From NCBI RefSeq assembly GCF_900105025.1, contig NZ_LT629759.1, forward strand, positions 2,108,001-2,172,000: DNA of 64,000 nucleotides. The letters run 5' to 3'. Under the pieces are notes generated by a model that did no database searches, was not told the origin of the DNA, and saw only the letters and a list, made by a program, of their open reading frames with translations. The stretch comes from Parafannyhessea umbonata (lineage in GTDB: Bacteria > Actinomycetota > Coriobacteriia > Coriobacteriales > Atopobiaceae). The translations under genes and the position numbers were made by a program. Positions 44,567 to 59,891 of the stretch are shown in pieces; the first letter of the stretch is position 1; the number at the start of each line of letters is the position of its first letter.

Positions 44567-44642
44567 GGCGGGATAGAATGATGCCCCGTGGGGCGCGCGT
44601 GTCGCGCCACCGGACGCGCGGGTGGCACCGTCGGGTGTGCGG

Positions 44643-44654
44643 GGCGAGAAGAAC
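44643..44654 (+). repeat. Exact copy of the dispersed 12-mer
   Basis: GGCGAGAAGAAC lies between the metY terminator and the mannose-6-phosphate isomerase gene, preceded by GG. Confidence 0.75.
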
Positions 44655-44711
44655 CCCCGCCGTCCGTGTCCGCGCGCCATGACCGCATTGGCATCGTCGC
44701 TGGGAGGAACC

Positions 44712-46478
44712 GTGGCCAAAACCGTGGAGCCGACTCCGCAGGGGTACGCGTACGACAAGGAGCCGGAGGTCCGCGTCGCGGGCTTCTCGGACGCCGCCTG
44801 GGAAGGGGCCCGGGCAGTCTCGCGCGAGCTCGGGCGCCTGCGCGGCGAGTCCGTCGTGGTGGTGGACTGCTACCCTGGCGTCACGCCGGACGTGCTCGAC
44901 CTGGTGCGTGAGGCCATCCAGCCGGACGAGGTGCTGCTGGCGCAGGACATGTATCGCGACCAGGGGCAGATAGACGCGATGCTCGCGCCGCACGTGACGC
45001 AGGACCGCGTGCGTGGGGTCATGTTCTACGGCTCGCTGCAAGACTTTGTGGACCCCGCGCGCCTGGACGCCCTTCGCGAGCGCCTGGCGCGGGCAAGGTG
45101 CGCAGGCAGGCGCGTCCTGGTGTATGGCGTCGGCGCGGCCCTGGTCTGCGCGGAGGGGACCCTCGTGTACTGCGACCTCGCCAGGTGGCAGATCCAGCTG
45201 CGCTATCGCGCCGGGGCGTGCAACTTCCTGCAAGACAACGCCACGGAGGACGCCCTGCGCAAGTTCAAGCGCGGCTACTTTATAGACTGGCGCGTCGCGG
45301 ACCGCCACAAGCGCACCCTGCTTGGCCGCATCGACTACCTGCTCGACACAAACGATGCCACCTGCCCGCGCCTCGCCACGGGCGACGCCTTTCGTGCCGG
45401 TCTGGCGCAGGTGGTGCGCCGCCCGTTCAGGCTCGTTCCGTACTTCGACCCCGGCGTCTGGGGCGGAACCTGGATGCGCGATCACTTTGGCCTTGACCCC
45501 AAGGCGCCCAACTACGCGTGGAGCTTTGACGGCGTGCCAGAGGAAAACAGCCTCTGCCTGCGCATCGGCGGCGTCCGCATAGAGGTTCCCGCGCAGGATG
45601 CCGTCCTGTCGCACCCCACGGAGCTGCTGGGGGCCGCAAACTACGCGCGCTTTGGGGCGGAGTTTCCCATCCGCTTTGACCTGCTGGACACCATGGGCGG
45701 CCAGAACCTGAGCCTGCAGGTCCACCCAAGCACGGACTACATCCACACGCACTACGGCATGGCCTACACGCAGGACGAGAGCTACTACATCCTGGACGCG
45801 GAGCCCGGCGCGGGCGTCTACCTGGGCCTTCGCGAAGGCGTGGACCCGGCGCGCATGATGGGTGCCCTACGCGCCGCCAACCGAGGCGAGGCGTCCTTCT
45901 CGGCCGAGGAGTTCGTCAACCGCATTCCTGCGCACCCGCACGACCACTTCCTCATTCCCGCGGGCACCGTGCACTGCTCGTCCGCGGGCTGCATGGTGCT
46001 CGAGATCAGCGCGACGCCGTACATCTTCACGTACAAGCTGTGGGATTGGGGCCGCTTGGGCATGGACGGCCTCCCGCGCCCCATCCATCTGGACGATGGC
46101 GAGAAGAACATCCGGTGGGACCGCACCACCACCTGGGTGCAGAGGAACCTCGTGGACCAGGCCCGCGAGGTCGGGAGCGGCGACGGCTGGGTCGAGGAGC
46201 GAACCGGCCTGCACGAGCTGGAGTTCATCGAGAGCCGGCGCGTCACCGCGACGGTGCCGACCAGCCACGACGCGAGCGCCGGCGTCCACGTGCTCAACCT
46301 CGTTGAGGGGGCGGCCGCGGTGGTGAGGAGCCCCCGGCACGCGTTCGAGCCGTTCGAGGTCCACTATGCAGAGACGTTCATCGTCCCCGCGGCGGCGGGC
46401 GCCTACGTGGTGGAGCCGGCGCGGCCGGGGGAGCGCATCCGCCTTGTGAAGGCGTACGTGCGTAACGCCACGGCATAG
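44712..46478 (+). CDS. manA: Class I mannose-6-phosphate isomerase, two-part form
   Basis: 588 aa from GTG 44712 with GGGAGGAAC immediately upstream. An ATG at 44679 is less well placed. The N-terminal 230 residues are a P-loop-free alpha/beta part (SVVVVDCYPGVTPDVLDLV, VLVYGVGAALVC) of the kind seen in bacterial phosphotransferase-like extensions. From about residue 240 comes the cupin phosphomannose isomerase: FRLVPYFDPGVWGGTWM, NLSLQVHPSTDYIHTHYG with the zinc His residues, ESYYILDAEPGAGVYLGL, HPHDHFLIPAGTVHCSSAGCMVLEIS. It links mannose-6-phosphate and fructose-6-phosphate. An exact dispersed 12-mer encodes GEKN at 46098. Confidence 0.88.
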   Translation: MAKTVEPTPQGYAYDKEPEVRVAGFSDAAWEGARAVSRELGRLRGESVVVVDCYPGVTPDVLDLVREAIQPDEVLLAQDMYRDQGQIDAMLAPHVTQDRVRGVMFYGSLQDFVDPARLDALRERLARARCAGRRVLVYGVGAALVCAEGTLVYCDLARWQIQLRYRAGACNFLQDNATEDALRKFKRGYFIDWRVADRHKRTLLGRIDYLLDTNDATCPRLATGDAFRAGLAQVVRRPFRLVPYFDPGVWGGTWMRDHFGLDPKAPNYAWSFDGVPEENSLCLRIGGVRIEVPAQDAVLSHPTELLGAANYARFGAEFPIRFDLLDTMGGQNLSLQVHPSTDYIHTHYGMAYTQDESYYILDAEPGAGVYLGLREGVDPARMMGALRAANRGEASFSAEEFVNRIPAHPHDHFLIPAGTVHCSSAGCMVLEISATPYIFTYKLWDWGRLGMDGLPRPIHLDDGEKNIRWDRTTTWVQRNLVDQAREVGSGDGWVEERTGLHELEFIESRRVTATVPTSHDASAGVHVLNLVEGAAAVVRSPRHAFEPFEVHYAETFIVPAAAGAYVVEPARPGERIRLVKAYVRNATA

Positions 46479-46502: not shown

Positions 46503-46799
46503 CTACGCCTTGTGCGCCTCGTCAAACGCCTTCGTCCGGGCCGCCGTGTCGCGGCGCGCCTCGTCGCTACGCGGGTGCAGCTGCACAAAGCGCGCAAACC
46601 CCTCCACGGACCAGTCGTCCCAGCCCTCCGTGTCGCCCAGGTTCTTGAACATGCACGTGGGCACCTCGCCCAGCGCCAGGTTCTTGCGGATGCACGCGTC
46701 GCAGCCAAAGCCGCCCCTCGCCAGGTTCGCGGGGTTGTTGGGATTGCACGGGCAGCGCGTGTCGCCGCAGGTGCAGAAGTGCCTGCCAAGGTCCGCCAT
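46503..46799 (-). CDS. Small Cys-rich protein (DUF6485-like)
   Basis: 98 aa from ATG 46799, which overlaps the stop of endonuclease III as TGATG, so translation is coupled. The N-terminal half is Cys-rich: FCTCGDTRCPCNPNNPANLARGGFGCDACIRKNLALGEVPTCMFKNLGD, a probable zinc- or iron-binding knot. The rest is helical and charged. The resemblance to DUF6485 is from memory; function unknown. Confidence 0.75.
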   Translation of the reverse strand: MADLGRHFCTCGDTRCPCNPNNPANLARGGFGCDACIRKNLALGEVPTCMFKNLGDTEGWDDWSVEGFARFVQLHPRSDEARRDTAARTKAFDEAHKA

Positions 46800-47572
46800 C
46801 ACGAGTCCCTTTCGCTTGTCTTTTTTCCACGCGCGCTGTCGGCGGCGCGCTTGCCGCCCCTCGCGCCCTTCGTGCCGGCCTTTCCCGCACCCTTCGCAGG
46901 CCCGCGTCGGCCCGCCTTCGCCGCCTTGAACGCTGACGGGCAGATGTCCGCGCACGGGCAGCCCTCGCACTTCGGCCGCTGCGCCGTGCACGTGTCGCGG
47001 CCAAAGTGTATCCACTCCTCGTTCACGTAGGTCCAGAGCTCCTGCGGCAGCAGGTCAAGCAGGTCCTTCTCCGCCGCCGCGGGAGTGCTCGCGCGCGTAA
47101 AGCCCATGCGCGTGGCAATGCGAAACACGTGCGTGTCCACCGCGATGCCCTCGCATATGCCAAACGCCTTGTTCAGCACGATGTTCGCCGTCTTGCGGCC
47201 CACGCCAGGCAGGCGGCACAGCTCCTCCATCGTGTGTGGCACCTCGCCGCCAAAGTCGCTCATGATCATCTGCGACAGCTCCACGCAGTGCGCGGCCTTC
47301 GCGCGCCAGAAGCCAATGCTGTGGATGACCTCGCCCACCTCGGCCGGGTCGGCCTGCGCCATCGCCTGCGGCGTGGGCCAGCGGCGAAAGAGCTCCGGCG
47401 TCACGCGGTTCACGCCGGCGTCCGTGGTCTGGGCAGAAAGCATCACGCATACCACCAGCGTAAACGGGTCGTGGTAGTCAAGCGCGCTCTGCACGCCGGG
47501 GTATCGCTCGTGCATGCGGGCGCAAAACTCGATGCCGCGCTGACGGCGCGACGCCTTCGACTCTCGTGGCAC
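46799..47572 (-). CDS. nth: Endonuclease III
   Basis: 257 aa if begun at GTG 47572, where GGTGAG sits 6 nt upstream. A TTG at 47635 is an alternative. It is a base-excision glycosylase/AP lyase for oxidised pyrimidines. LLSAQTTDAGVN-like MLSAQTTDAGVNRV near residue 50, the helix-hairpin-helix with the lyase Lys in LCRLPGVGRKTANIVL near 122 and the Asp in AVDTHVFRIATRMGF near 145 are all present. The iron-sulfur cluster is intact (CTAQRPKCEGCPCADIC). A Lys/Gly/Arg-rich tail of about 45 residues follows and is unusual. Confidence 0.95.
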   Translation of the reverse strand: MPRESKASRRQRGIEFCARMHERYPGVQSALDYHDPFTLVVCVMLSAQTTDAGVNRVTPELFRRWPTPQAMAQADPAEVGEVIHSIGFWRAKAAHCVELSQMIMSDFGGEVPHTMEELCRLPGVGRKTANIVLNKAFGICEGIAVDTHVFRIATRMGFTRASTPAAAEKDLLDLLPQELWTYVNEEWIHFGRDTCTAQRPKCEGCPCADICPSAFKAAKAGRRGPAKGAGKAGTKGARGGKRAADSARGKKTSERDS

Positions 47573-47915
47573 GATCTTCTCACCTGCCTTGCCGTGGCCC
47601 GACGTCGTGCGCGCGGGCGCAACGCGCGGGGTCAAAACTTGCCGTTAGTGGCACATGATACCCGCTTTTGTGTCCATGCGACCGCGCTGTCCGTGCCACC
47701 GCCGTCGCTCGTTCCCGCGTAACGGCGGTTCGCGCGCGTATCGCCGTATACCTCCGCCCGCGCCCGCTTCGCGCCGGTCGCGCGCGGCCCGTTTGCGGCC
47801 GACCGCGAAGTCATGGCCGCAAAGCCTTGCCCGTTTACATAGAATGTGTAGTTGCGGTGGTGATTGCGTGGGCATGCCACCCACCCTAGTCGTGACGAAG
47901 CCGGAGGATGGTCGC
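47573..47915. other. Gene-less divergent promoter region nth / glgB
   Basis: No supported gene. The left end carries the 12-mer variant GATCTTCTCACC (47573-47584). TAGAAT (47840-47845) is a possible -10 box for the glycogen operon without a clear -35. The glgB Shine-Dalgarno GGAGG lies at 47903-47907. Confidence 0.5.
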
Positions 47916-50186
47916 ATGAGCGCGCCTATAGCCAACTACCTTCTTACCAACGATGACCTTTACCTCATGGGCAAGGGCGTGTGGTACCGCAGCTACGAGA
48001 AGCTCGGCGCCCATCCCTGCAACAAGGACGGCGTCGAGGGCTACTGGTTTGCCGTGTGGGCGCCAGACGTCAAGAGCGTCCGCGTGATCGGCGACTTCAA
48101 CGACTGGGACACGGACGCCACCTACCTCGAGTGCACGCCTACCGGCGACGTGTGGTACGGCTTTGTGCCCGGCGCCACGGAGGGTCAGCTCTACAAGTAC
48201 CTGATCGAGACCGCCCGCGGCGACCTGCTGTACAAGGCCGATCCGTACGCGTTTTACGCGGAGTGCCCCCCGGGGACGGCGTCGCGTACCGCGGACATCT
48301 CCGGCTATAAGTGGCAGGACGAGAAGTACATGGCCTCCCGCGCCAAGCAGGACTTCTTCAAGCGGCCGCTCAACATCTTCGAGTGCCACCTGGGCAGCTG
48401 GAAGCGCCACCCGGACGGCCTGGCCGGAAACGGCGACCCGGATTCCGACGACCATGCCGGCAGCTACCTCACCTACGACGAGCTCTCCGTCGAGCTGGTC
48501 GATTACGTGAAGAAGATGGGCTACTCGCACATCGAGGTCCTGCCCGTGATGGAGCACCCGTTCGACGGCTCGTGGGGCTACCAGGTGACGGGCTACTTCG
48601 CGCCCACCAGCCGCTACGGAAACCCCAGGCAGTTCAAGCACTTTGTGGACGCCTGCCACCAGGCGGGCATCGGCGTGATCTTAGACTGGGTGCCCGGCGG
48701 CTTCTGCCGCGACGAGCATGGCCTGGTGCACTTTAACGGAGAGAAGCTGTACGAGAAGGAGGAGCACCCCAACTGGGGCACGTTCAAGTTCGACTTCTCG
48801 CGCAACGAGGTCCGCAACTTCCTGACGTCCAACCTCCTGTACTGGGTGGGGGAGTATCACGCGGACGGAATCCGCATGGACGGCGTCACGTCCATGCTCT
48901 ACCTCAACTTTGGCGTGGACGACCCAAGCCAGAAGAAGTTCAACTCCCGCGGCACGGAGGAGGACGACGCCTCCATCGAGTTCATCCGCACGTGCAACGA
49001 CACCGTGGGCAAGTACTACCCTGACGTGATGAGGATCGCGGAGGAGTCCACGGCGTGGCCGCTCGTGACGTACCCCACCTCCGACGGCGGCCTGGGATTC
49101 CACTTCAAGTGGGACATGGGCTGGATGAACGACACGCTGCACTACATGCAGACCGACTTCCCGTATCGCCCCGGCAACCACAAGCTCCTGACCTTCTCGA
49201 CCATGTACCAGTTCAACGAGAACTTCATCTTGCCGCTCAGCCACGACGAGGTGGTCCACGGCAAGTGCTCGCTCATCACCCGCATGCCGGGTGACTACTG
49301 GCGCCAGTTTGCGGGCATGCGCGCCCTTGCGCTGTACCAGATGACGCATGCGGGCGGCAAGCTCAACTTCATGGGCAACGAGCTTGGCCAGTTCATCGAA
49401 TGGCGCTACTACGAGGGCATCCAGTACTTCCTGACGGAGGAGTACGAGAGCCATGCCCACCAGCAGCACTACGTCGCGGCCCTGAACGCGCTCTACGAGG
49501 CGCAGCCCGCGCTGTGGCAGGACTCGTACTCGCCGGAGGGCTTCGACTGGATCGACGCGGACAACGCCGACCAGTGCATAATCTCGTTCGCGCGCCATGG
49601 CGACGACGAGAAGGACGACCTCGTGATCCTGATCAACTTCGAGGTGAACCCCCACGAGGACTTCAGGCTGGGCGTGCCGAGGCCGGGCATCTACGAGGAG
49701 GTCTTCAACTCCGACGACGAGGAGTTCGGCGGCTCGGGCGTCACGAACAGGGGCGTGAAGTTCAAGACGGAGGACGTGCCGTGGAACCGCCAGGAGCAGT
49801 CCATAGAGCTGCGCATACCGCCCCTGGGCGGCACGATCCTGCACTACGTGGGCCCGCTGCCCAAGAAGCGCACGCGCAAGACTGCCGCGAAGTCCGCAAA
49901 GCCGACCGCGAAGTCCGCGACAAAGTCCGCGTCTAAGGCCAAGGCGCCCGCAAAGTCCGCCGCAAAGGCGTCTACCTCGGCAAAGTCCGTCACGAAGGCC
50001 GCGTCCAAGGTAACGAAGGACGCGACCGCGGGTAAAGCCGCGGCAAAAAAGGCACCCTCGCGCAAGACCTCGACCGCAAAAACTGGTAACACTAAAGTGG
50101 CTGGCAAGTCCAAGGCGCCCTCGACGTCTTCGAGCAAAGGGGGAACCGCGAAGGCGAGAAGTGCGGGCGCCGCGAAGCCGGAATAG
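47916..50186 (+). CDS. glgB: 1,4-alpha-glucan branching enzyme with histone-H1-like C-terminal tail
   Basis: 756 aa from ATG 47916 with GGAGG upstream; the frame is open to 47655 but without a good start. It makes alpha-1,6 branches in glycogen. A CBM48-type N-domain (about 20-130: YWFAVWAPDVKSVRVIGDFNDWD) precedes the GH13 barrel: GSWGYQVTGYFAPTSRYG, the nucleophile in ADGIRMDGVTSML near 323, the acid in RIAEEST near 375 and HDE in ILPLSHDEVVHG near 443. The normal end is about residue 648. Residues 650-756 are extra and consist almost only of Lys, Ala, Ser, Thr and Pro in AKS/AKK-like repeats, as in histone H1 or mycobacterial HupB tails. The operon glgP-C-D-A follows. Confidence 0.95.
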   Translation: MSAPIANYLLTNDDLYLMGKGVWYRSYEKLGAHPCNKDGVEGYWFAVWAPDVKSVRVIGDFNDWDTDATYLECTPTGDVWYGFVPGATEGQLYKYLIETARGDLLYKADPYAFYAECPPGTASRTADISGYKWQDEKYMASRAKQDFFKRPLNIFECHLGSWKRHPDGLAGNGDPDSDDHAGSYLTYDELSVELVDYVKKMGYSHIEVLPVMEHPFDGSWGYQVTGYFAPTSRYGNPRQFKHFVDACHQAGIGVILDWVPGGFCRDEHGLVHFNGEKLYEKEEHPNWGTFKFDFSRNEVRNFLTSNLLYWVGEYHADGIRMDGVTSMLYLNFGVDDPSQKKFNSRGTEEDDASIEFIRTCNDTVGKYYPDVMRIAEESTAWPLVTYPTSDGGLGFHFKWDMGWMNDTLHYMQTDFPYRPGNHKLLTFSTMYQFNENFILPLSHDEVVHGKCSLITRMPGDYWRQFAGMRALALYQMTHAGGKLNFMGNELGQFIEWRYYEGIQYFLTEEYESHAHQQHYVAALNALYEAQPALWQDSYSPEGFDWIDADNADQCIISFARHGDDEKDDLVILINFEVNPHEDFRLGVPRPGIYEEVFNSDDEEFGGSGVTNRGVKFKTEDVPWNRQEQSIELRIPPLGGTILHYVGPLPKKRTRKTAAKSAKPTAKSATKSASKAKAPAKSAAKASTSAKSVTKAASKVTKDATAGKAAAKKAPSRKTSTAKTGNTKVAGKSKAPSTSSSKGGTAKARSAGAAKPE

Positions 50187-50285: not shown

Positions 50286-52736
50286 ATGACTGAACAGAGC
50301 TGGCCCAAGATCTTTACCGACAAGGAAGACTTCATCAAGCAGTATCGCCTGGCGTGCGAGCGCGAGTTCTCCAAGTCCCATGAGGAGCTCGGTCCGCAGG
50401 AGCGCTACTACGCCATGGCAAGCCTCATCGCGGGCAAGGCGAAGGCGCTTCGCGGCGACACCCTGAAGCGGGCAAACGACAAGGGCGAGAAGACCGTGTA
50501 CTACTTCTCCATCGAGTTCCTACTCGGGCCCCTGCTTGACAACTACCTGCTGAACTTTGGCATCCGCGACATCGTGAAGGCGGCGTGCAAGGACCTTGGC
50601 ATGCAGCTCGACGACATCGAGCGCTGCGAGAGCGACCCCGGCCTCGGCAACGGCGGACTCGGCCGCCTGGCCGCGTGCTTCCTCGACTCCATGGCCGCAC
50701 TCGGCATCAACGGCAACGGCAACGGCATGCGCTATCGCTATGGCCTGTTCAGACAGGCCATCGAGGGCGGCCGCCAGGTCGAGAAGATGGACAACTGGCT
50801 GGAGCACGGATTCCCGTGGGAGACCCGCAGGAACGAGAGCGCCGTGCTCATCCGCTTCGGCGGCCAGGTCGTGCGTCACGAGGAGAACGGCCGCTACTGG
50901 TTCACGCAGGAGGGCGGCGAGCTCGTGAAGGCCGTCCCGTACGACGTGCCCATCGTGGGCTACGGCGCAAAGAAGGTCAACAACCTGCGCCTGTGGAGCG
51001 CCGAGCCCGCCGAGGAGAACTTCGACCTCGACGCGTTCAACGCCGGCGACTACGCGAAGGCCATGAAGTTCCGCTCTGACGTCGAGGCCATCTCGCAGAT
51101 CCTGTACCCGAACGACGCCGGCGAGCACGGCCGTCTGCTCAGGCTGAAGCAGGAGTACCTGTTCGTCTCCGCGGGCCTGCAGACGATCCTGCGCGACTAC
51201 AAGAAGAAGTATGGGAACGACGCCTGGGAGGACCTCGGCAAGCACGTCTCCATCCACACGAACGACACCCACCCCGCCATGTGCGGCCCCGAGCTCATGA
51301 GGCTCCTGGTGGACGAGCATGGCGTCGACTTCGACCTCGCGTTCAAGATCGCGCAGCAGACCATCTCGTACACCAACCACACGATTATGCCCGAGGCGCT
51401 GGAGAAGTGGCCCATCAGCACGTTCCGCGACCTGCTTCCCCGCACCTACATGTTCATCGAGGAGATCGACCGCCGCTATCGCGAGGGCTTCCCCCACACC
51501 GACCCCAACTGGCAGGAGGAGTTCAAGAACACCGCCATCCTGTGGGACGGCCAGATTCGCATGGCGAACCTCTCCGTCATCTTCGCGAACTCCGTCAACG
51601 GCGTCTCCGCACTGCACACCGGCATCCTCGAGGCGACGACGCTGCACGACTACTACAAGCTGAGGCCCGAGAAGTTCAACAACAAGACGAACGGCATCTC
51701 GCACCGCCGCTTCCTCGGCAACGCGAACCCCAAGTACGCGAAGCTCGTGTGCGACGTGCTGGGCGAGGGCTGGCTCGGTGACGCGAACAAGCTGGCCGAG
51801 CTCGAGAAGTATGAGGACGACCCCTCGTTCCTGGAGCAGTTCGAGAAGGCCAAGGAGTGGGACAAGCAGCGCCTCGCGGACTACATCAAGGAGACGACGG
51901 GCACGGTCCTCGACACCAGCATGGTGTTCGACGTCCAGGTCAAGCGCTTCCATGCGTACAAGCGCCAGCTGCTGAACGTGTTCAAGATCCTGGACATCTA
52001 CAACAGGCTGCTTGCCGACCCGTCCTTCAAGCCGCGCCCGACGGCGTTCATCTTCTCTGGCAAGGCCGCGCAGAGCTACACCTTCGCCAAGGAGGTCATC
52101 CGGCTCATCAACTCCGTCGCGGACGTCATCAACAACGACAAGCGCGTGAACGACGTCATCCGCGTCGCGTTCGTGCCCAACTTCGCCGTATCGAGCGCGC
52201 AGCTCATCTACCCGGCGGCCGAGATCTCCGAGCAGATCTCGTGGGCGGGATCCGAGGCGTCCGGCACCTCGAACATGAAGCTCATGATGAACGGCGCCAT
52301 CACGCTCGGCACCTACGACGGCGCGAACGTCGAGATCGCGAAGCTCGTGGGCGATGAGAACATCAAGATCTTCGGCCTGAGGACCGAGGAGGTGGACGCG
52401 CTCCGTGCGAGCGGCAACTACTGGGCGTACGACCTTCTCAAGAAGGACCCGGACCGTCTTGGCCGCATCGTGAACCAGCTGAAGGACGGCACGTTCGCGC
52501 GTCTGTCCGGCAACTTCGACAGCATCTACGACGAGCTCATGGTCGGCAATGACCACGACCTCGTGCTGAAGGACTTCTATTCGTACGTGGACGCGTGGGA
52601 GGAGCTGACCCAGGCCTACGGCGACCGGGCGAAGTGGAACCGCGCGGCTGTGCACAACACGGCCAGGTCCGGATATTTTTCCAGCGACCGAACCATTCGC
52701 GAATATGCCCATGACATTTGGCATATTGATGCATAG
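50286..52736 (+). CDS. glgP: Glycogen/maltodextrin phosphorylase
   Basis: 816 aa, typical length, from ATG 50286 with TAAGGAATG upstream. It releases glucose-1-phosphate from glycogen. YFSIEFLLGPLLDNYLLN near residue 68, DPGLGNGGLGRLAACFLDSMA near 118 and HTNDTHPAMCGPELMRLL near 322 are the substrate-site blocks. The PLP Lys is in EASGTSNMKLMMNGAITLGTYDGANVEI near residue 662. All critical residues are present. It lies 100 nt after glgB and before glgC in the same direction. Confidence 0.97.
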   Translation: MTEQSWPKIFTDKEDFIKQYRLACEREFSKSHEELGPQERYYAMASLIAGKAKALRGDTLKRANDKGEKTVYYFSIEFLLGPLLDNYLLNFGIRDIVKAACKDLGMQLDDIERCESDPGLGNGGLGRLAACFLDSMAALGINGNGNGMRYRYGLFRQAIEGGRQVEKMDNWLEHGFPWETRRNESAVLIRFGGQVVRHEENGRYWFTQEGGELVKAVPYDVPIVGYGAKKVNNLRLWSAEPAEENFDLDAFNAGDYAKAMKFRSDVEAISQILYPNDAGEHGRLLRLKQEYLFVSAGLQTILRDYKKKYGNDAWEDLGKHVSIHTNDTHPAMCGPELMRLLVDEHGVDFDLAFKIAQQTISYTNHTIMPEALEKWPISTFRDLLPRTYMFIEEIDRRYREGFPHTDPNWQEEFKNTAILWDGQIRMANLSVIFANSVNGVSALHTGILEATTLHDYYKLRPEKFNNKTNGISHRRFLGNANPKYAKLVCDVLGEGWLGDANKLAELEKYEDDPSFLEQFEKAKEWDKQRLADYIKETTGTVLDTSMVFDVQVKRFHAYKRQLLNVFKILDIYNRLLADPSFKPRPTAFIFSGKAAQSYTFAKEVIRLINSVADVINNDKRVNDVIRVAFVPNFAVSSAQLIYPAAEISEQISWAGSEASGTSNMKLMMNGAITLGTYDGANVEIAKLVGDENIKIFGLRTEEVDALRASGNYWAYDLLKKDPDRLGRIVNQLKDGTFARLSGNFDSIYDELMVGNDHDLVLKDFYSYVDAWEELTQAYGDRAKWNRAAVHNTARSGYFSSDRTIREYAHDIWHIDA

Positions 52737-52799: not shown

Positions 52800-53948
52800 A
52801 TGAGCAAGAGGGAATGCATTGCAATGCTTCTTGCCGGCGGCCAGGGCAGCAGGCTCGGCGTCCTCACGAAGGAAGTCGCCAAGCCCGCCGTCTCGTTCGG
52901 CGGGAAGTATCGCATTATTGACTTTGCACTGTCCAACTGCGCCAACTCTGACATCGATACCGTTGGCGTGCTGACTCAGTACAGGCCGTATCTCCTGCAC
53001 AACTACCTTGGCTCCGGCAGCGCCTGGAACCTGGACGAGAGCGAGGGCGGCCTGTTCATCCTGCCGCCATACGCCACCCAGACCGGCGGCGCATGGTATG
53101 CGGGCACCGCGGACGCCGTGACCCAGAACCTGGGCTTCATCAAGCAGAACGACCCCGAGTACGTCCTCATCCTCTCTGGCGACCAGCTGTACAACATGGA
53201 CTACCAGAAGATGCTCGACAACCACAAGCGCCACAACGCGGACCTCACCATCGCGGTCATGCCCGTGCCCTGGGAGGAGGCGTCCCGCTTCGGCATCCTG
53301 ACGACCGACGAGGATGAGAAGATCCTCAAGTTCACCGAGAAGCCCGCAGAGCCAGACTCGAACCTCGCGTCCATGGGCATCTACATCTTCAACGCAGACC
53401 TCCTGGTCAAGACGCTGGAGGAAGACGCGGAAGACGAGAACTCCGAGCACGACTTCGGCAAGGACATCATCCCGAAGCTCCTTGCCGCCGGCAAGCGCCT
53501 CTACACCTACGAGTACAACGGCTTCTGGCGCGACGTCGGCACCATCGCCAGCTACCACGAGACGAGCATGGACCTGCTGGGCACCAAGCCCGACTTCGAC
53601 CTGTTCGACACCGAGGCTCCCATCATGAGCAACGCCGGCGCCATGCCGCCTGCGTACGTCGGTCCGGACGCCACCGTGGACGACTGCCTCGTCGGCAACG
53701 GCAGCAGCATCTACGGCAAGGCCGTGCACTCCATCGTCTCGACCGGCGCCGTCGTCGGCGAGGGCGCGCTCGTCCAGGACTCCGTGCTCCTGCCGGGCGC
53801 TGAGGTCAAGGCCGGGGCGCGCGTCATCCGCGCCATCCTCGGCGAGAACTCCGTCGTCGAGGCGGAGGCGACCCTTGGCAGCTCTGACCAGTCCGCTGAT
53901 ATCGCCGTCATTGGAAATGACACAGTCGTTGCAAAGGAGGCGGAGTAG
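52800..53948 (+). CDS. glgC: Glucose-1-phosphate adenylyltransferase, GlgC
   Basis: 382 aa from ATG 52800 with AAAGGGGAG upstream. It forms ADP-glucose, the committed step to glycogen. [38 protein letters not shown] is the nucleotide-binding start, with the G-G-x-G-S-R-L loop and the catalytic region intact. [10 protein letters not shown] near residue 130 has the metal Asp, and FTEKP and [12 protein letters not shown] line the sugar site. The C-terminal left-handed beta-helix spans about 290-370. The stop is 2 nt before the start of glgD, so both subunits are coupled. Confidence 0.96.
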
Positions 53949-53950
53949 AG

Positions 53951-55048
53951 ATGGAAAAGCTCCTGGGCGTCATTACCGCCAACTACTCCACAAAGTATCC
54001 GAGCGTCCTCTCCGAGACGCGCCCGGTCGCGTCCCTGCCCTATCTCGGCCGCTACCGCGTCGTCGACTTCGCGCTCTCCAACATGGTCAACGCCGGCATC
54101 CGCACCGTCGGCATGATCATGCCGTACAACTACCGTTCCCTGATCGACCACATCGGCTCTGGCCGTGACTGGGACCTGAACCGCAAGAAGGGCGGCCTGT
54201 TCATCCTGCCCGGCTCTGCGTTCGGCACCTCCCGCACGGGGTCTCGCTTCCTGCTTCGCGACCTCGAGTACAACAAGGTCTTCCTGAAGCGCAGCGACGC
54301 CGAGCACGTGGTCCTCTCCTCCGCGAGCTTTGTCTATAACATGGACTACGACAAACTCATCGAGGCGCACAAGGCCTCCGGCGCGGACATCACCGTCGTC
54401 ACCCAGTCCGCGAGGGGCAAGGATGCCGACGTCACCGGGCTCTCCGTCGACGGCACGCGCGTCCATGGCATCAAGCACGGCGTCGAGCGCGGTGAGGTTT
54501 CGTTCCTCGACTGCTTCGTCATCGGCCGCGAGTTCCTGCTCCAGCTGCTCAACTGGTATGAGCAGACCGACTACCTCGACCTCTTCGAGGCCATGGCAGC
54601 CGACTACGAGCGCGTGAACGTCCAGACGTACGACTTCGACGGTTACGTCGCGCCGATCTTCAACAAGGACAACTACTTCAAGTCCAACATGGACATGCTC
54701 GACCCGAAGATCTCCTCCGAGCTGTTCCCGGCCGACCGCACGATCAAGACGAAGGCCCACGACAACGCCCCCGCGAAGTTCGAGACCGGCTCTCGCGTGA
54801 GCAACAGCCGCGTCTCCGGCAGCTGCCGCATCAAGGGCACCGTGTCCAACTCCATCCTAGGCCGCAACGTCGTCGTGGAGACCGGCGCCGTCGTCAACAA
54901 CTCCATCGTGATGCAGTCCTGCGTGATCAAGACCGGCGCACGCGTCGAGAACGCAATCGTCGACCGCGACAACGTCGTTCCCGCCGGCACCGAGCTCAAG
55001 GGAACGCCCGAAGCCCTGTTCATCAAGGAAAAGGCATCGGTAGAGTAG
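53951..55048 (+). CDS. glgD: Glucose-1-phosphate adenylyltransferase regulatory-type subunit, GlgD
   Basis: 365 aa from ATG 53951, with GGAGGCGGAG in the end of glgC as its ribosome site. It is a GlgC paralogue: GVITANYSTKYPSVLSETRPVASLPYLGRYRVVDFALSNMVNAGI lacks the G-G-x-G-S-R-L loop and the metal Asp (SSASFVYNMDYD instead of SGDQ). The beta-helix part (GSRVSNSRVSGSCRIKGTVSNSILG) is kept. In Firmicutes GlgD joins GlgC in an active heterotetramer. A GlgC-GlgD pair in an actinobacterium is notable, because most Actinobacteria have GlgC alone. Confidence 0.95.
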   Translation: MEKLLGVITANYSTKYPSVLSETRPVASLPYLGRYRVVDFALSNMVNAGIRTVGMIMPYNYRSLIDHIGSGRDWDLNRKKGGLFILPGSAFGTSRTGSRFLLRDLEYNKVFLKRSDAEHVVLSSASFVYNMDYDKLIEAHKASGADITVVTQSARGKDADVTGLSVDGTRVHGIKHGVERGEVSFLDCFVIGREFLLQLLNWYEQTDYLDLFEAMAADYERVNVQTYDFDGYVAPIFNKDNYFKSNMDMLDPKISSELFPADRTIKTKAHDNAPAKFETGSRVSNSRVSGSCRIKGTVSNSILGRNVVVETGAVVNNSIVMQSCVIKTGARVENAIVDRDNVVPAGTELKGTPEALFIKEKASVE

Positions 55049-55058
55049 GGATTAGCCC

Positions 55059-56534
55059 ATGAGTGATCAGGTCACACGCAAGATAAAGATCCTGTTCGCC
55101 GCCACGGAGGCCGTCCCGTTCGTCAAGACGGGCGGCCTGGGTGACGTCGCTGGTTCGCTGCCCCGCTCACTTAATGCCGCAGGGGCGGAATGCTCCGTCA
55201 TCCTCCCGAAGTACGCCTCGATTCCCGAGGAGTACCAGGAGAAGATGACCCACATAGCAGACTTCTACGTTCCCCTTGCGTGGCGTAGCGTCTACTGCGG
55301 CATCGAGAAGCTCACCTACCAGGGTGTCGACTTCTACTTCGTAGACAACGAGGCCTACTTCAAGCGTGACGGCATCTACGGGTACTACGACGACGGCGAG
55401 CGCTTCGCGTTCTTCTCTAAGGCGATCTGCGAGGCCATCGAGAAGCTGCCCGAGCTCCAGTGCGACGTGCTGCACTGCAACGACTGGCAGACGGCGCTCG
55501 CCACGGTGTTCCTGCGCGAGTTCTACCAGGACTCCGAGGCGTGCCGTCACGTGAAGACCGTGTTCACGGTCCACAACGTCAAGTTCCAGGGCCAGTACAA
55601 CGACAAGGTCCTCGAGGACGTCCTCGGCCTCGCGGACAACCCGACGGCGTCGAGTCAGCTGTACAACGGCTACGGCACCGTCGACTACATGAAGGGCGCG
55701 CTCTGCTACTCAGACCTCATCACGACGGTCAGCCCGAGCTACGCCAACGAGCTCCAGATGCCGTTCTACGGCGAGGGCCTCGACGACATCTTCCGTCGCC
55801 GCTCGTCGCAGCTCCGCGGCATCCTGAACGGCATCGATACCGACCTGTGGAACCCCGCGACGGACAAGCTCATCGAGAGCAACTACGACGAGGACTCCCT
55901 GGACCGCAAGGCCCAGGACAAGGCCGCCCTCCAGCGCGAGCTTGGCCTTGAGGAGGATCCCACCCGCCCGCTCATCGTCATGATCGGGCGCCTCACGAAC
56001 CAGAAGGGCCTCGGCCTCGTTCGCTATGCCATGAACCACCTGATGGAGCGTGGCACGCAGGTTGCGATCCTCGGTACGGGCGACAAGGACCAGGAGGATG
56101 CGTTCAAGTACTTCGACTGGACGTACGGCGACCAGATGGTCGCGCGCATCGCCTTCGACAACGCGCTCAGCCACCGCATGTATGCCGGCGGCGACATCCT
56201 GCTCATGCCGTCGGAGTTCGAGCCGTGCGGCCTGTCGCAGATGATCGCCATGCGTTACGGCACGCTCCCCGTCGTTCGCGAGACCGGCGGCCTGCAGGAC
56301 AGCGTCGTCGCGTACAACAAGTACACCGGCGAGGGCACGGGCTTCAGATTCACTAACATGAATGCCGACGAGATGGCCAACTGCGTGCTTGATGCGTGCG
56401 AAGTGTTCTGGACGGATAAGGACGCATGGATTAAGCTACAAAGGCAAGCAATGGAGACCGATTTCAGCTGGAGTCGCGCGGCAGACACGTACATGGACAT
56501 GTACCACTCGCTGCACCCGGAGATCGGTCGTTAA
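55059..56534 (+). CDS. glgA: Glycogen synthase
   Basis: 491 aa from ATG 55059, 10 nt after glgD. It elongates alpha-1,4-glucan from ADP-glucose (GT5). ILFAATEAVPFVKTGGLGDVAGSLPRSL near residue 10 carries the K-x-G-G-L substrate loop. HCNDWQTAL near 140, TVFTVHNVKFQGQY near 168 and PSYANELQMP near 228 follow. The C-terminal Rossmann part shows IGRLTNQKG near 310 and LMPSEFEPCGLSQMIAMRYGTLPVVRETGGL near 388. Complete and typical. Confidence 0.97.
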   Translation: MSDQVTRKIKILFAATEAVPFVKTGGLGDVAGSLPRSLNAAGAECSVILPKYASIPEEYQEKMTHIADFYVPLAWRSVYCGIEKLTYQGVDFYFVDNEAYFKRDGIYGYYDDGERFAFFSKAICEAIEKLPELQCDVLHCNDWQTALATVFLREFYQDSEACRHVKTVFTVHNVKFQGQYNDKVLEDVLGLADNPTASSQLYNGYGTVDYMKGALCYSDLITTVSPSYANELQMPFYGEGLDDIFRRRSSQLRGILNGIDTDLWNPATDKLIESNYDEDSLDRKAQDKAALQRELGLEEDPTRPLIVMIGRLTNQKGLGLVRYAMNHLMERGTQVAILGTGDKDQEDAFKYFDWTYGDQMVARIAFDNALSHRMYAGGDILLMPSEFEPCGLSQMIAMRYGTLPVVRETGGLQDSVVAYNKYTGEGTGFRFTNMNADEMANCVLDACEVFWTDKDAWIKLQRQAMETDFSWSRAADTYMDMYHSLHPEIGR

Positions 56535-56546
56535 GCAGAAGAGGGT

Positions 56547-59500
56547 ATGGCTTTGAGGGCTAGGCACAACACCTCAGACAGCCAATACAGGAACCCGTTC
56601 GGCGCCGTCCTTGCTGGCGGCGCCGTTTCCTTGTGTATTGACGTCTGGGACGAGCCGTCGGCGGAGGCACGGCTTCGCGTTTGGATAGACGACAAGGGCG
56701 AGAAGATCCTGGACATGGACCGCATCCCCCTCGGCGATCAGGAGGCCGCCCAGTTCGGGGACGACGTTCCCGTGCGCTTCGGCGTCACGATCGAGCCGGA
56801 GGAGCCCGAGGTCATCTGGTACTCGTTCCAGATCGTCGCGGCGGACGGCGCCGCGTGGCGCTACGGTGCCGCGCGCGAGCACGGCTGCGGCGAGGGCGCC
56901 TTCGCCTTCGGCGAGCCGCCATCGTTCCAGATCACCGTGTACCAGAACGAGCGCAAGGAGCAGCCGGACTGGTACAAGAACGGCATCGTCTACCAGATCT
57001 TCCCGGACCGCTTCTACCGCGGCAAGGGCTGGGAGAAGAGCGTGGAGGCAGCGTTCAAGAAGCCCCACAACGCCGGCCCCGGCATGCGCTTCGTGGACGA
57101 CTGGTTCACGTACCCGCGCTACGACAAGACCCAGGACGGCCGCATCGCCAACTGGGACTTCTACGGCGGCACGCTAAACGGCATCCGCGAGAAGCTCCCG
57201 TACCTCGAGGCCCTCGGCATCACGGTCATCTACCTCAACCCCATCTTCGAGGCCGCGTCCAACCACCGCTACGACACGGCCAACTACCTCAAGATCGACC
57301 CGATGCTCGGTACGGAGGCGGACTTCAAGGCGCTGTGCCAGGACGCGTCCGCCCGTGGCATCTCCATCATCCTCGACGGCGTGTTCAACCACGTCGGCGC
57401 GGACTCCCTCTACTTCAACAAGTACGGCAACTACGGCTCGGAGGGCGCGGCCCAGCCCGGCGCCTCCGCGTACGACACCTGGTTCGACTTCAACGGCGAC
57501 GGCAGCTACAAGAGTTGGTGGGGCGTCGACGACCTGCCCGACGTGAACGAGGACAGTCCCGACTTCCGCGAGCTCATCTGCGGCCACGACGGCGTCATCC
57601 GCAAGTGGCTCCGCCTCGGCGCGCGCGGCTGGCGCCTCGACGTGGCCGACGAGCTCTCCGACGACTTCATCTCAGAGATCAAGGCGGCGGCCCTGGCCGA
57701 GAAGCCCGACGCCGTCGTGATCGGCGAGGTCTGGGAGGACGCGACCAACAAGTTCGCGTACAACAGGCTCCGCCACTACTTCTGGGGCTCCGAGCTCGAT
57801 GGCACCATGAACTACCCGTTGCGCCAGGTGCTCCTAGACTTCCTCACCAACCGCGTCGAGGCTGCGGAGGTCTGCCGCGTCACCCAGTCCCTCATGGAGA
57901 ACTACCCGCCGGAGGCGTTCGCGAGCGAGCTCAACCTGCTGGGCAGCCACGACCGGATCAGGCTTCTCACCATCCTGGGCAACTCGCCGGAGCCGGATTC
58001 CCTCGGCGACTACCAGCGCTACGCGTTCCGCCTGGACAAGGACCACACCAACCTCGCCGTCAGCCGCCTGTGGGTCGCGGCCCTGCTACAGATGACGCTG
58101 CCCGGCGTCCCAAGCATCTACTACGGCGACGAGGCCGGCCTCCAGGGCTACGGCGACCCGTACAACCGCGCTGCCTTCCCGTGGCGCCGCGAGAACAAGG
58201 ACTGCTTCGACATCTATCGCAACGCCGTCGCCATCAGGAAGTCCCTGCCCGTGTTCACGGACGGCGACTACCGTCCGTTCGCGATCGGTCGGGACGTCTT
58301 TGGCTTCTGGCGCGAGGACGCCAACTCCAAGGTCTGCGTGCTCGTGAACGCAAGCCTCGACGTCGACCACACCGTCACCATCCCGCTGGACGGCCTCGAG
58401 GTGGACGACGTCGTCTCCGGCAAGGCGCCCAAGGTGGAGGACGGTAACGCCCGCGTGTTCCTGTGGCCGCTCGGCACGGCCGTGCTCAACCTGCACAAGC
58501 GGCAGCGCCTACAGAAGCCCATGGAGCGCGGCATGGGCGTGGTCTGCCACGTCACGTCGCTTCCCAACCCGGGCCGCCCCGGCAAGCCGGGCACGCTGGG
58601 AGACCCCGCGTACCGCTTCATAGACTACCTCGCCGCCGGCGGCCAGCGCTACTGGCAGGTCCTTCCCGTCAACCCCACGGACCACTTCGGCTCCCCGTAC
58701 GCGGGGCTTTCCGCGTTCGCGGGCAACGTCGCGCTCATGTGGGGCTACGACGAGGACGGCGGCACCTCCTTCTCGGCGGACTTCGAGGGCACGCGCGAGT
58801 ACCGCGACTTCCTGCAAGAAAACGAGGAGTGGCTCATCCCGTACGCAACGTTCCGCGCCATCAAGCGCCGCATGGGCGAGAAGAGCTGGCAGGAGTGGCC
58901 GGAGCGCTACCGCGAGTACAGCGGCAGGCTCGCCCACAGCAAGGAGCTCGCCGCGGACGTGCGCCGCGAGTGCGCCGTGCAGTTCGAGTTCATGCGCCAG
59001 TGGGGCGAGGTCCGCGCGTACGCCAACGCCCGCGGGATCAAGATCATTGGCGACATGCCCATGTACGTGAGCGCGGACTCGTCCGACGTCTGGGCGGAGC
59101 GCAAGTACTTCGCAGTGGGCGCCGACGGCTACCCCGCGGGCCAGGCGGGCTGCCCGCCCGACAGCTTCTCTGCGGACGGCCAGCTGTGGGGCAACCCAAC
59201 GTATCGCTGGGACGTCATGCGCGCTGACGGCTACCGCTGGTGGATGCGCCGCTTCAAGCGCGCGTTCCAGCTGTACGACTACGTGCGCCTGGACCACTTC
59301 CTGGGCTTCAGCAGCTACTACTGCATCCCAAACGGCAAGACCCCGCTCCAGGGTTCGTGGTACTTTGGGCCTGGGCTCGACCTGTTCCGTCGCGCGTACC
59401 AGGAGTTTGGCCCGCTGCCCGTCGTGGCGGAGGACCTTGGCACCGTCACGCCGGCCGTGCGCACCCTCGTGAGCGCAACCGGCTTCCCGGGCATGGACGT

Positions 59501-59891
59501 GGCCCAGTTCTACCAGGGCGATCCCAGCGAGCAGTACGAGCCCGCGCCGCAGAAGATGGTGTACACCTCCACGCACGACACCAACACGCTCCTGGGCTGG
59601 GTGCGCGAGCACTACGGCCTCGCGCCCGCGGAGGGCGCCGGCGAGGAGGATGTCGTGCGCCTGCACGACGAGGCCGTCGCCAAGGCGGATCGCGTGATGG
59701 ACAACTGCCTCGCCACGGACGCCGATGTCGCCATGGTCACGCTGCAGGACGTCCTTCGCCTGGACGAGAAACACCGCATGAACGTGCCGGGCGTCGCCAC
59801 GGGCAACTGGAGCTGGCAGGCAGACCAGGCGTCCATTGACGCCTCCCAGCAGCATCTGCGCGATCTGGCCGAGAAGAGCGGCCGCATCTAG
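56547..59891 (+). CDS. Fusion of GH13 glycosidase (neopullulanase-like) and GH77 4-alpha-glucanotransferase
   Basis: 1114 aa from ATG 56547. Residues 1-120 are a beta N-domain. Residues 130-620 are a GH13 barrel: GIVYQIFPDRFYRG, YLNPIFEAASNHRYDT, the nucleophile in GARGWRLDVADEL near 365, the acid in VIGEVWED near 395 and LLGSHDRIRLL near 468. From about residue 655 a complete MalQ-type GH77 enzyme begins (ERGMGVVCHVTSLPNP): RYWQVLPVNPT, the nucleophile in YVRLDHFLGFSSYY near 915, the acid in PVVAEDLGTVTP near 965 and YTSTHDTNTLLGWV near 1012. Fused, the two can debranch or cut and rearrange malto-oligosaccharides from glycogen. It ends the operon with a strong terminator. Confidence 0.94.
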   Translation: MALRARHNTSDSQYRNPFGAVLAGGAVSLCIDVWDEPSAEARLRVWIDDKGEKILDMDRIPLGDQEAAQFGDDVPVRFGVTIEPEEPEVIWYSFQIVAADGAAWRYGAAREHGCGEGAFAFGEPPSFQITVYQNERKEQPDWYKNGIVYQIFPDRFYRGKGWEKSVEAAFKKPHNAGPGMRFVDDWFTYPRYDKTQDGRIANWDFYGGTLNGIREKLPYLEALGITVIYLNPIFEAASNHRYDTANYLKIDPMLGTEADFKALCQDASARGISIILDGVFNHVGADSLYFNKYGNYGSEGAAQPGASAYDTWFDFNGDGSYKSWWGVDDLPDVNEDSPDFRELICGHDGVIRKWLRLGARGWRLDVADELSDDFISEIKAAALAEKPDAVVIGEVWEDATNKFAYNRLRHYFWGSELDGTMNYPLRQVLLDFLTNRVEAAEVCRVTQSLMENYPPEAFASELNLLGSHDRIRLLTILGNSPEPDSLGDYQRYAFRLDKDHTNLAVSRLWVAALLQMTLPGVPSIYYGDEAGLQGYGDPYNRAAFPWRRENKDCFDIYRNAVAIRKSLPVFTDGDYRPFAIGRDVFGFWREDANSKVCVLVNASLDVDHTVTIPLDGLEVDDVVSGKAPKVEDGNARVFLWPLGTAVLNLHKRQRLQKPMERGMGVVCHVTSLPNPGRPGKPGTLGDPAYRFIDYLAAGGQRYWQVLPVNPTDHFGSPYAGLSAFAGNVALMWGYDEDGGTSFSADFEGTREYRDFLQENEEWLIPYATFRAIKRRMGEKSWQEWPERYREYSGRLAHSKELAADVRRECAVQFEFMRQWGEVRAYANARGIKIIGDMPMYVSADSSDVWAERKYFAVGADGYPAGQAGCPPDSFSADGQLWGNPTYRWDVMRADGYRWWMRRFKRAFQLYDYVRLDHFLGFSSYYCIPNGKTPLQGSWYFGPGLDLFRRAYQEFGPLPVVAEDLGTVTPAVRTLVSATGFPGMDVAQFYQGDPSEQYEPAPQKMVYTSTHDTNTLLGWVREHYGLAPAEGAGEEDVVRLHDEAVAKADRVMDNCLATDADVAMVTLQDVLRLDEKHRMNVPGVATGNWSWQADQASIDASQQHLRDLAEKSGRI

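Follow-up and report, generated by a model that had tools for sequence, protein, structure and literature searches.

The window analysed here, a 64,000-nucleotide stretch of the genome of Parafannyhessea umbonata, contains at 47916–50186 (+) a reading frame of 756 residues, open throughout, that encodes a complete glycogen branching enzyme (GlgB) and then a basic tail. The catalytic core (residues 1–645; 47916–49850 (+)) is made up of CBM48, the GH13 barrel and the C-terminal beta domain, and carries a net charge of −43. The curated GlgB model NF008967 (NCBIfam) scores 808.8 bits over residues 9–643, well above its cut-off of 577, solved GlgB homologues match residues 9–642 (E ~1e-190), and Pfam recognises CBM_48, the alpha-amylase domain and Alpha-amylase_C, the last of which stops at residue 644. 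These ends, together with the open frame, bear out the initial annotation, in which the branching-enzyme domain was complete by about residue 648 and the frame ran on into a tail up to 50186. The GH13 catalytic residues D322, E376/E377 and D444 lie within the invariant motifs DGIRMD, AEEST and SHDEVV, and an AlphaFold2 model built with 41 homologues as input is mostly confident over the core, with some weak loops. In its entire core, its domain order and its solved homologues the protein is like other GH13-family GlgBs; in Pfam and NCBIfam it matches GH13-type families only, with no homology to a phasin-type granule-binding domain.

The gene belongs to a glg cluster. Downstream on the same strand follow the GlgP glycogen phosphorylase (50286–52736 (+), Pfam Phosphorylase), a GlgC-like ADP-glucose pyrophosphorylase and a GlgD-like subunit (52800–53948 (+) and 53951–55048 (+), open reading frames whose identity was read from the sequence), the GlgA glycogen synthase (55059–56534 (+), Pfam Glyco_transf_5 and ORF end) and a GH13 amylase fused to a MalQ-like GH77 4-alpha-glucanotransferase (56547–59891 (+), Pfam and ORF end), none of which has a basic tail. 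The last of these unites the alpha-amylase domain and the GH77 domain in a single protein of 1114 residues. Divergent from glgB lies an Nth-like endonuclease III (46799–47635 (−)) with a K/G/R-rich C-terminal end, and K-rich ends on endonuclease III also occur in a few relatives (L004, L010). A tally of such ends over the divergent Nth neighbours was set aside, as it mostly reflects truncation of the reference at residue 210. Also in the window is a 618-residue ORF (44622–46478 (+)) that has no Pfam match at E 0.001 and parts of which resemble, by eye, a mannose-6-phosphate-isomerase-type cupin.

The tail itself (residues 646–756; 49851–50183 (+), with the stop codon at 50184–50186) has a net charge of +28 and consists, in its 111 residues, of 29 A, 26 K, 17 S, 14 T, 7 G, 7 P, 4 R and 3 V, with one each of L, D, N and E. 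The initial description of a tail of Lys, Ala, Ser, Thr and Pro only was right about the dominant residues and slightly overstated, as G, R, V, L, D, N and E are also present. From residue 661 onwards the AlphaFold2 model has a pLDDT of about 32–43 and no secondary structure, and the tail is thus predicted to be disordered. No Pfam family matched it up to E 1, those of the H1/HC1/HC2 type included. The C-terminal domain of histone H1 and the tails of mycobacterial HupB and HBHA are likewise K/A-rich and disordered, and the GlgB tail resembles them in make-up, with no detectable homology. A chance reading of a repeat at the DNA level was considered and rejected: neither of the two other reading frames of the region encodes a K/A-type product, and the mixture of synonymous codons in the tail (21 AAG and 5 AAA for lysine; GCG, GCC, GCA and GCT for alanine) rules out a simple DNA repeat.

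Far from being peculiar to one genome, the tail is conserved across the Coriobacteriales, an order whose members live in the gut and mouth. In an even whole-genome sample, whose groups were assigned to families by inference from named records, a tail with a net charge of at least +8 was present on 48 of 54 glg-operon GlgBs from Atopobiaceae and on all 13 from Coriobacteriaceae, while no GlgB match was found in any of the genomes sampled from a third family of the order. Tail length in the 54 readable Atopobiaceae GlgBs has a median of 74.5 residues (range 12–271), and the shortest tails, of 12–24 residues, carry a net charge of +3 to +6. None of the 40 GlgBs sampled from other Actinomycetota families and none of 20 GlgB paralogues from the same family (35–40% identical over the core) has a basic tail. 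The tail-less paralogue occurs in about 20 sampled Atopobiaceae (L200–L219), and P. umbonata has it as a second GlgB, 41% identical, at G000:C1:121702-123252 (−).

A scan of public genomes with the GlgB core agrees with the even sample, with which it shares organisms, so that the counts are not additive. The best 80 loci listed were nearly all from Atopobiaceae and Coriobacteriaceae, and among these matches every locus readable to its stop codon extends past the core. The two nearest species likewise carry the tail. A fusion of frames by sequencing error, raised as a possibility in the initial annotation, is excluded by in-frame tails of the same kind at about 77 loci from independent assemblies and in the two nearest species; absence of the tail from all relatives, which had been named as evidence against it, is the reverse of what was found. 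On a FastTree phylogeny of the cores, presence of the tail requires five changes, which can be read as one gain, on the branch that leads to the clade of Coriobacteriales, followed by about four losses through shortening; the position of one locus (L142) is unsure because FastTree warns of long branches.

Within the glg operon the tail is confined to GlgB. Among loci with 6-kb flanks it was found on 77 of 77 GlgBs and on none of 66 GlgP and 63 GlgD neighbours, and one of 65 GlgC relatives had a short basic end. A survey of about 1.26 Mb (about 54%) of the P. umbonata genome returned few genes with comparable K-rich stretches. Besides topoisomerase I, SecE and the endonuclease III beside glgB, these were a DEAD-box helicase, a protein with a BMC domain and a putative esterase that contains a long A/E/K-rich segment. 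The few K-rich ends include those of DNA/RNA proteins (topoisomerase, endonuclease III, DEAD-box helicase), a point in favour of the tether reading proposed below. A lineage-wide fashion for K-rich tails is not supported by so few real proteins and, since the operon neighbours are tail-less as well, the tail is a habit of neither the lineage nor the operon.

The sequence of the tail turns over fast: tails cannot be aligned between clades, and their charge is retained. In the Collinsella aerofaciens complex, dN/dS was 0.105 at columns with a K/R majority, 0.41 at A columns and 0.90 at S/T columns, compared with 0.033 for the core. Nonsynonymous change in the same complex was 0.037 at K/R columns versus 0.142 elsewhere in the tail (P 0.0008 by column permutation), and in Olsenella/Thermophilibacter 0.147 versus 0.266 (P 0.014, same method). 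In the rumen Atopobiaceae clade, where tails are more diverged, no such constraint was seen (P 0.22). The K/R positions are therefore constrained in two of the three clades tested, with a possible contribution from the aligner's preference for pairing K with K. Across 54 tails, basic residues lie 4, 5 and 6 positions apart more often than expected (z 5.2, 11.8 and 3.7, values inflated by shared ancestry and slippage) and 2–3 and 7–8 positions apart less often. Many rumen Atopobiaceae tails finish in a conserved RRSAAAKKAAATRKANAAKKA-like segment that belongs to no Pfam family; at L016–L020, L024–L028 and L074 this conserved KARRSAAAKKAAATRKANAAKKA-like end sets the GlgB C-termini apart from the free-form tails of other clades.

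A passenger was also offered in the initial annotation. A functionless low-complexity extension that arose by repeat slippage and is tolerated would account for tails that vary from 12 to 271 residues and defy alignment between clades, for the almost free evolution of the S/T positions and for the fall in GC3 from 0.93 in the core to 0.76 in the tail. We nevertheless consider it very unlikely, as the tail has been retained through the radiation of the order with few losses and is missing from the paralogue and the outgroups, and its charged positions are both constrained and evenly spaced.

To our knowledge, little is known of how bacteria place glycogen and pass it on to their daughter cells. 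The tail is C-terminal, K/A-rich, predicted to be disordered and regular in the spacing of its basic residues, as expected of a tether, and we tentatively favour a reading, with chances slightly short of even, in which GlgB doubles as a tether between glycogen and a polyanion, most likely the nucleoid. The core would hold the growing glycogen through CBM48 and the catalytic domain, and the flexible tail, with a basic residue every ~4–6 positions, would bind a polyanion without sequence specificity, most probably chromosomal DNA. Glycogen particles coated with GlgB would in this way stay attached to the nucleoid and dispersed, and would be split among daughter cells instead of becoming polar. 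With somewhat more reserve, we suggest that throughout the order the branching enzyme may also position glycogen granules, so that a store tied to the chromosome would be dispersed and inherited with the DNA. A target for such a tether would exist, because in Escherichia coli glycogen builds up at the old cell pole and displaces the nucleoid (PMC12706056). In csrA mutant cells, the polar glycogen keeps the chromosome out and limits replicative lifespan (PMC4836754, PMC12706056).

The tethering of glycogen to the nucleoid proposed in the initial annotation, like the resemblance to histone H1 noted there, is consistent with this evidence and has close precedents in AlgP, PhaF and PhaM. In these proteins of polyhydroxyalkanoate (PHA; PhaM, PhaF) and polyphosphate (AlgP) granules, a granule-binding part is joined to a basic H1-like C-terminal part (PMC13052382, PMC3574117, PMC9239181). 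We compared the GlgB tail with them through their published descriptions, that of the histone-like domain of PhaM resting on a review (PMC13052382), as a text search for the tail in the PhaM paper itself (PMC3556143) gave no match. AlgP of Pseudomonas aeruginosa has the same kind of tail on a storage-granule protein, a disordered, H1-like C-terminal K/A/P repeat; the C-terminal domain, which includes this 154-residue KPAA repeat, is needed for the even spacing of polyphosphate granules (PMC9239181). Its lysine share is about 24% (37 lysines among 154 residues, by our count of the repeats in PMC9239181) versus 23% in the GlgB tail, in which spacing is less regular and most prolines are replaced by S/T. 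The carriers differ, as the N-terminal part of AlgP is helical and non-enzymatic and its granule is polyphosphate, whereas the GlgB tail is borne by a catalytic branching enzyme. PhaF of Pseudomonas putida, a non-specific DNA binder that determines where PHA granules lie (PMC3574117), and PhaM of Ralstonia eutropha likewise join a granule-binding N-terminal part to a histone-like, DNA-binding basic C-terminus (PMC3574117, PMC13052382), and their granule (PHA/PHB) is a carbon store like glycogen. Their granule-binding part is of another fold than GlgB, and PhaM is a polymerase activator whereas GlgB is itself the enzyme; the Phasin domain (PF05597) was not found in the P. umbonata genome, and homology to phasins does not extend to GlgB.

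A 2025 review that presents PhaM, PhaF and AlgP as tethers to the nucleoid is silent on glycogen (PMC13052382), so that H1-like-tailed tethers are described there for PHA and polyphosphate granules and none for glycogen. One survey of 9,006 branching enzymes sorted only their N-termini into classes (PMC6339891), and the accessible part of a review of prokaryotic alpha-glucan enzymes says nothing of a GlgB tail that is lysine-rich or disordered, of the nucleoid or of Coriobacteria (PMC11046441). The initial annotation knew of no described GlgB of this form, and we too found none, in a search confined to open-licence papers and for that reason weak evidence. Both the enzyme and the type of tail are known; their combination, conserved across an order, is apparently new. 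If the tether is real, glycogen would join PHA and polyphosphate as a third kind of granule served by this sort of tail, and the order-wide tail of the branching enzyme offers a direct and easily tested candidate for glycogen positioning.

DNA is not singled out as the ligand because a tail of H1-like composition binds any polyanion. Counting against a DNA tether, the whole GlgB remains acidic (core −43, tail +28), which could weaken DNA binding, and a similar tail occurs on the putative esterase, which has no known DNA role. The short, weakly charged tails of some members and the K/R result in rumen Atopobiaceae speak against it as well. Binding to RNA and ribosomes, or to nucleic acids generally, would instead bridge glycogen to the translation machinery or place it in RNA-containing condensates. 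DNA and RNA are inseparable by composition and disorder alone, and a K-rich extension in the same genome is also carried by the RNA-helicase-like protein; we regard this reading as unlikely, given that the storage-granule proteins with a tail of this composition have been described as binding DNA (PMC9239181, PMC3574117).

Acidic protein surfaces, either of the GlgB core itself (net −43) or of other acidic glg enzymes, are a further conceivable partner, in which case the tail would cluster enzymes on glycogen or tune branching. The mean net charge of the core is −37 in Atopobiaceae and −44 in Coriobacteriaceae compared with −28 in other Actinomycetota, and within Coriobacteriaceae the basic charge of the tail rises with the acidity of the core (rho −0.82, n = 13, kinship ignored). 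No correlation between core and tail charge exists in Atopobiaceae, however (rho −0.02, n = 54), and the tail-less paralogues are about equally acidic (−36), which leaves this alternative distinctly unlikely.

Polyphosphate was named as a possible ligand in the initial annotation, and a tail that binds it would link the glycogen and polyphosphate stores. AlgP, with its similar tail, sits on polyphosphate granules (PMC9239181), and the polyphosphate kinase PPK1 is encoded in the P. umbonata genome and in 40 of 61 genomes of the family; PPK2 scores above its cut-off in 23 genomes. Of the five tails that are shortest in the PPK comparison, four come from genomes with neither PPK1 nor PPK2 (Fisher P 0.017, kinship ignored); several of these genomes are small, and general reduction may explain their short tails. 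Yet tail charge overall does not differ between genomes with and without PPK (Mann-Whitney P 0.44), and the tail can persist without polyphosphate made by PPK1 or PPK2, because ten genomes that lack both enzymes keep full tails (net +13 to +37). As a general ligand polyphosphate is weakened accordingly, and we judge this reading improbable.

Two other proteins from the genome survey have noteworthy architectures. A 516-residue protein at G000:C1:142014-143564 (L227) combines a putative esterase domain (PF00756), the long A/E/K-rich segment and, behind it, a basic KPAA-like tail that closely resembles the one on GlgB, in a phasin-like arrangement with an enzyme in front. The BMC-domain protein at G000:C1:179747-180412 (L228–L229) has a long K/A/S-rich N-terminal stretch ahead of its shell domain, and its true start may be internal to the open frame.
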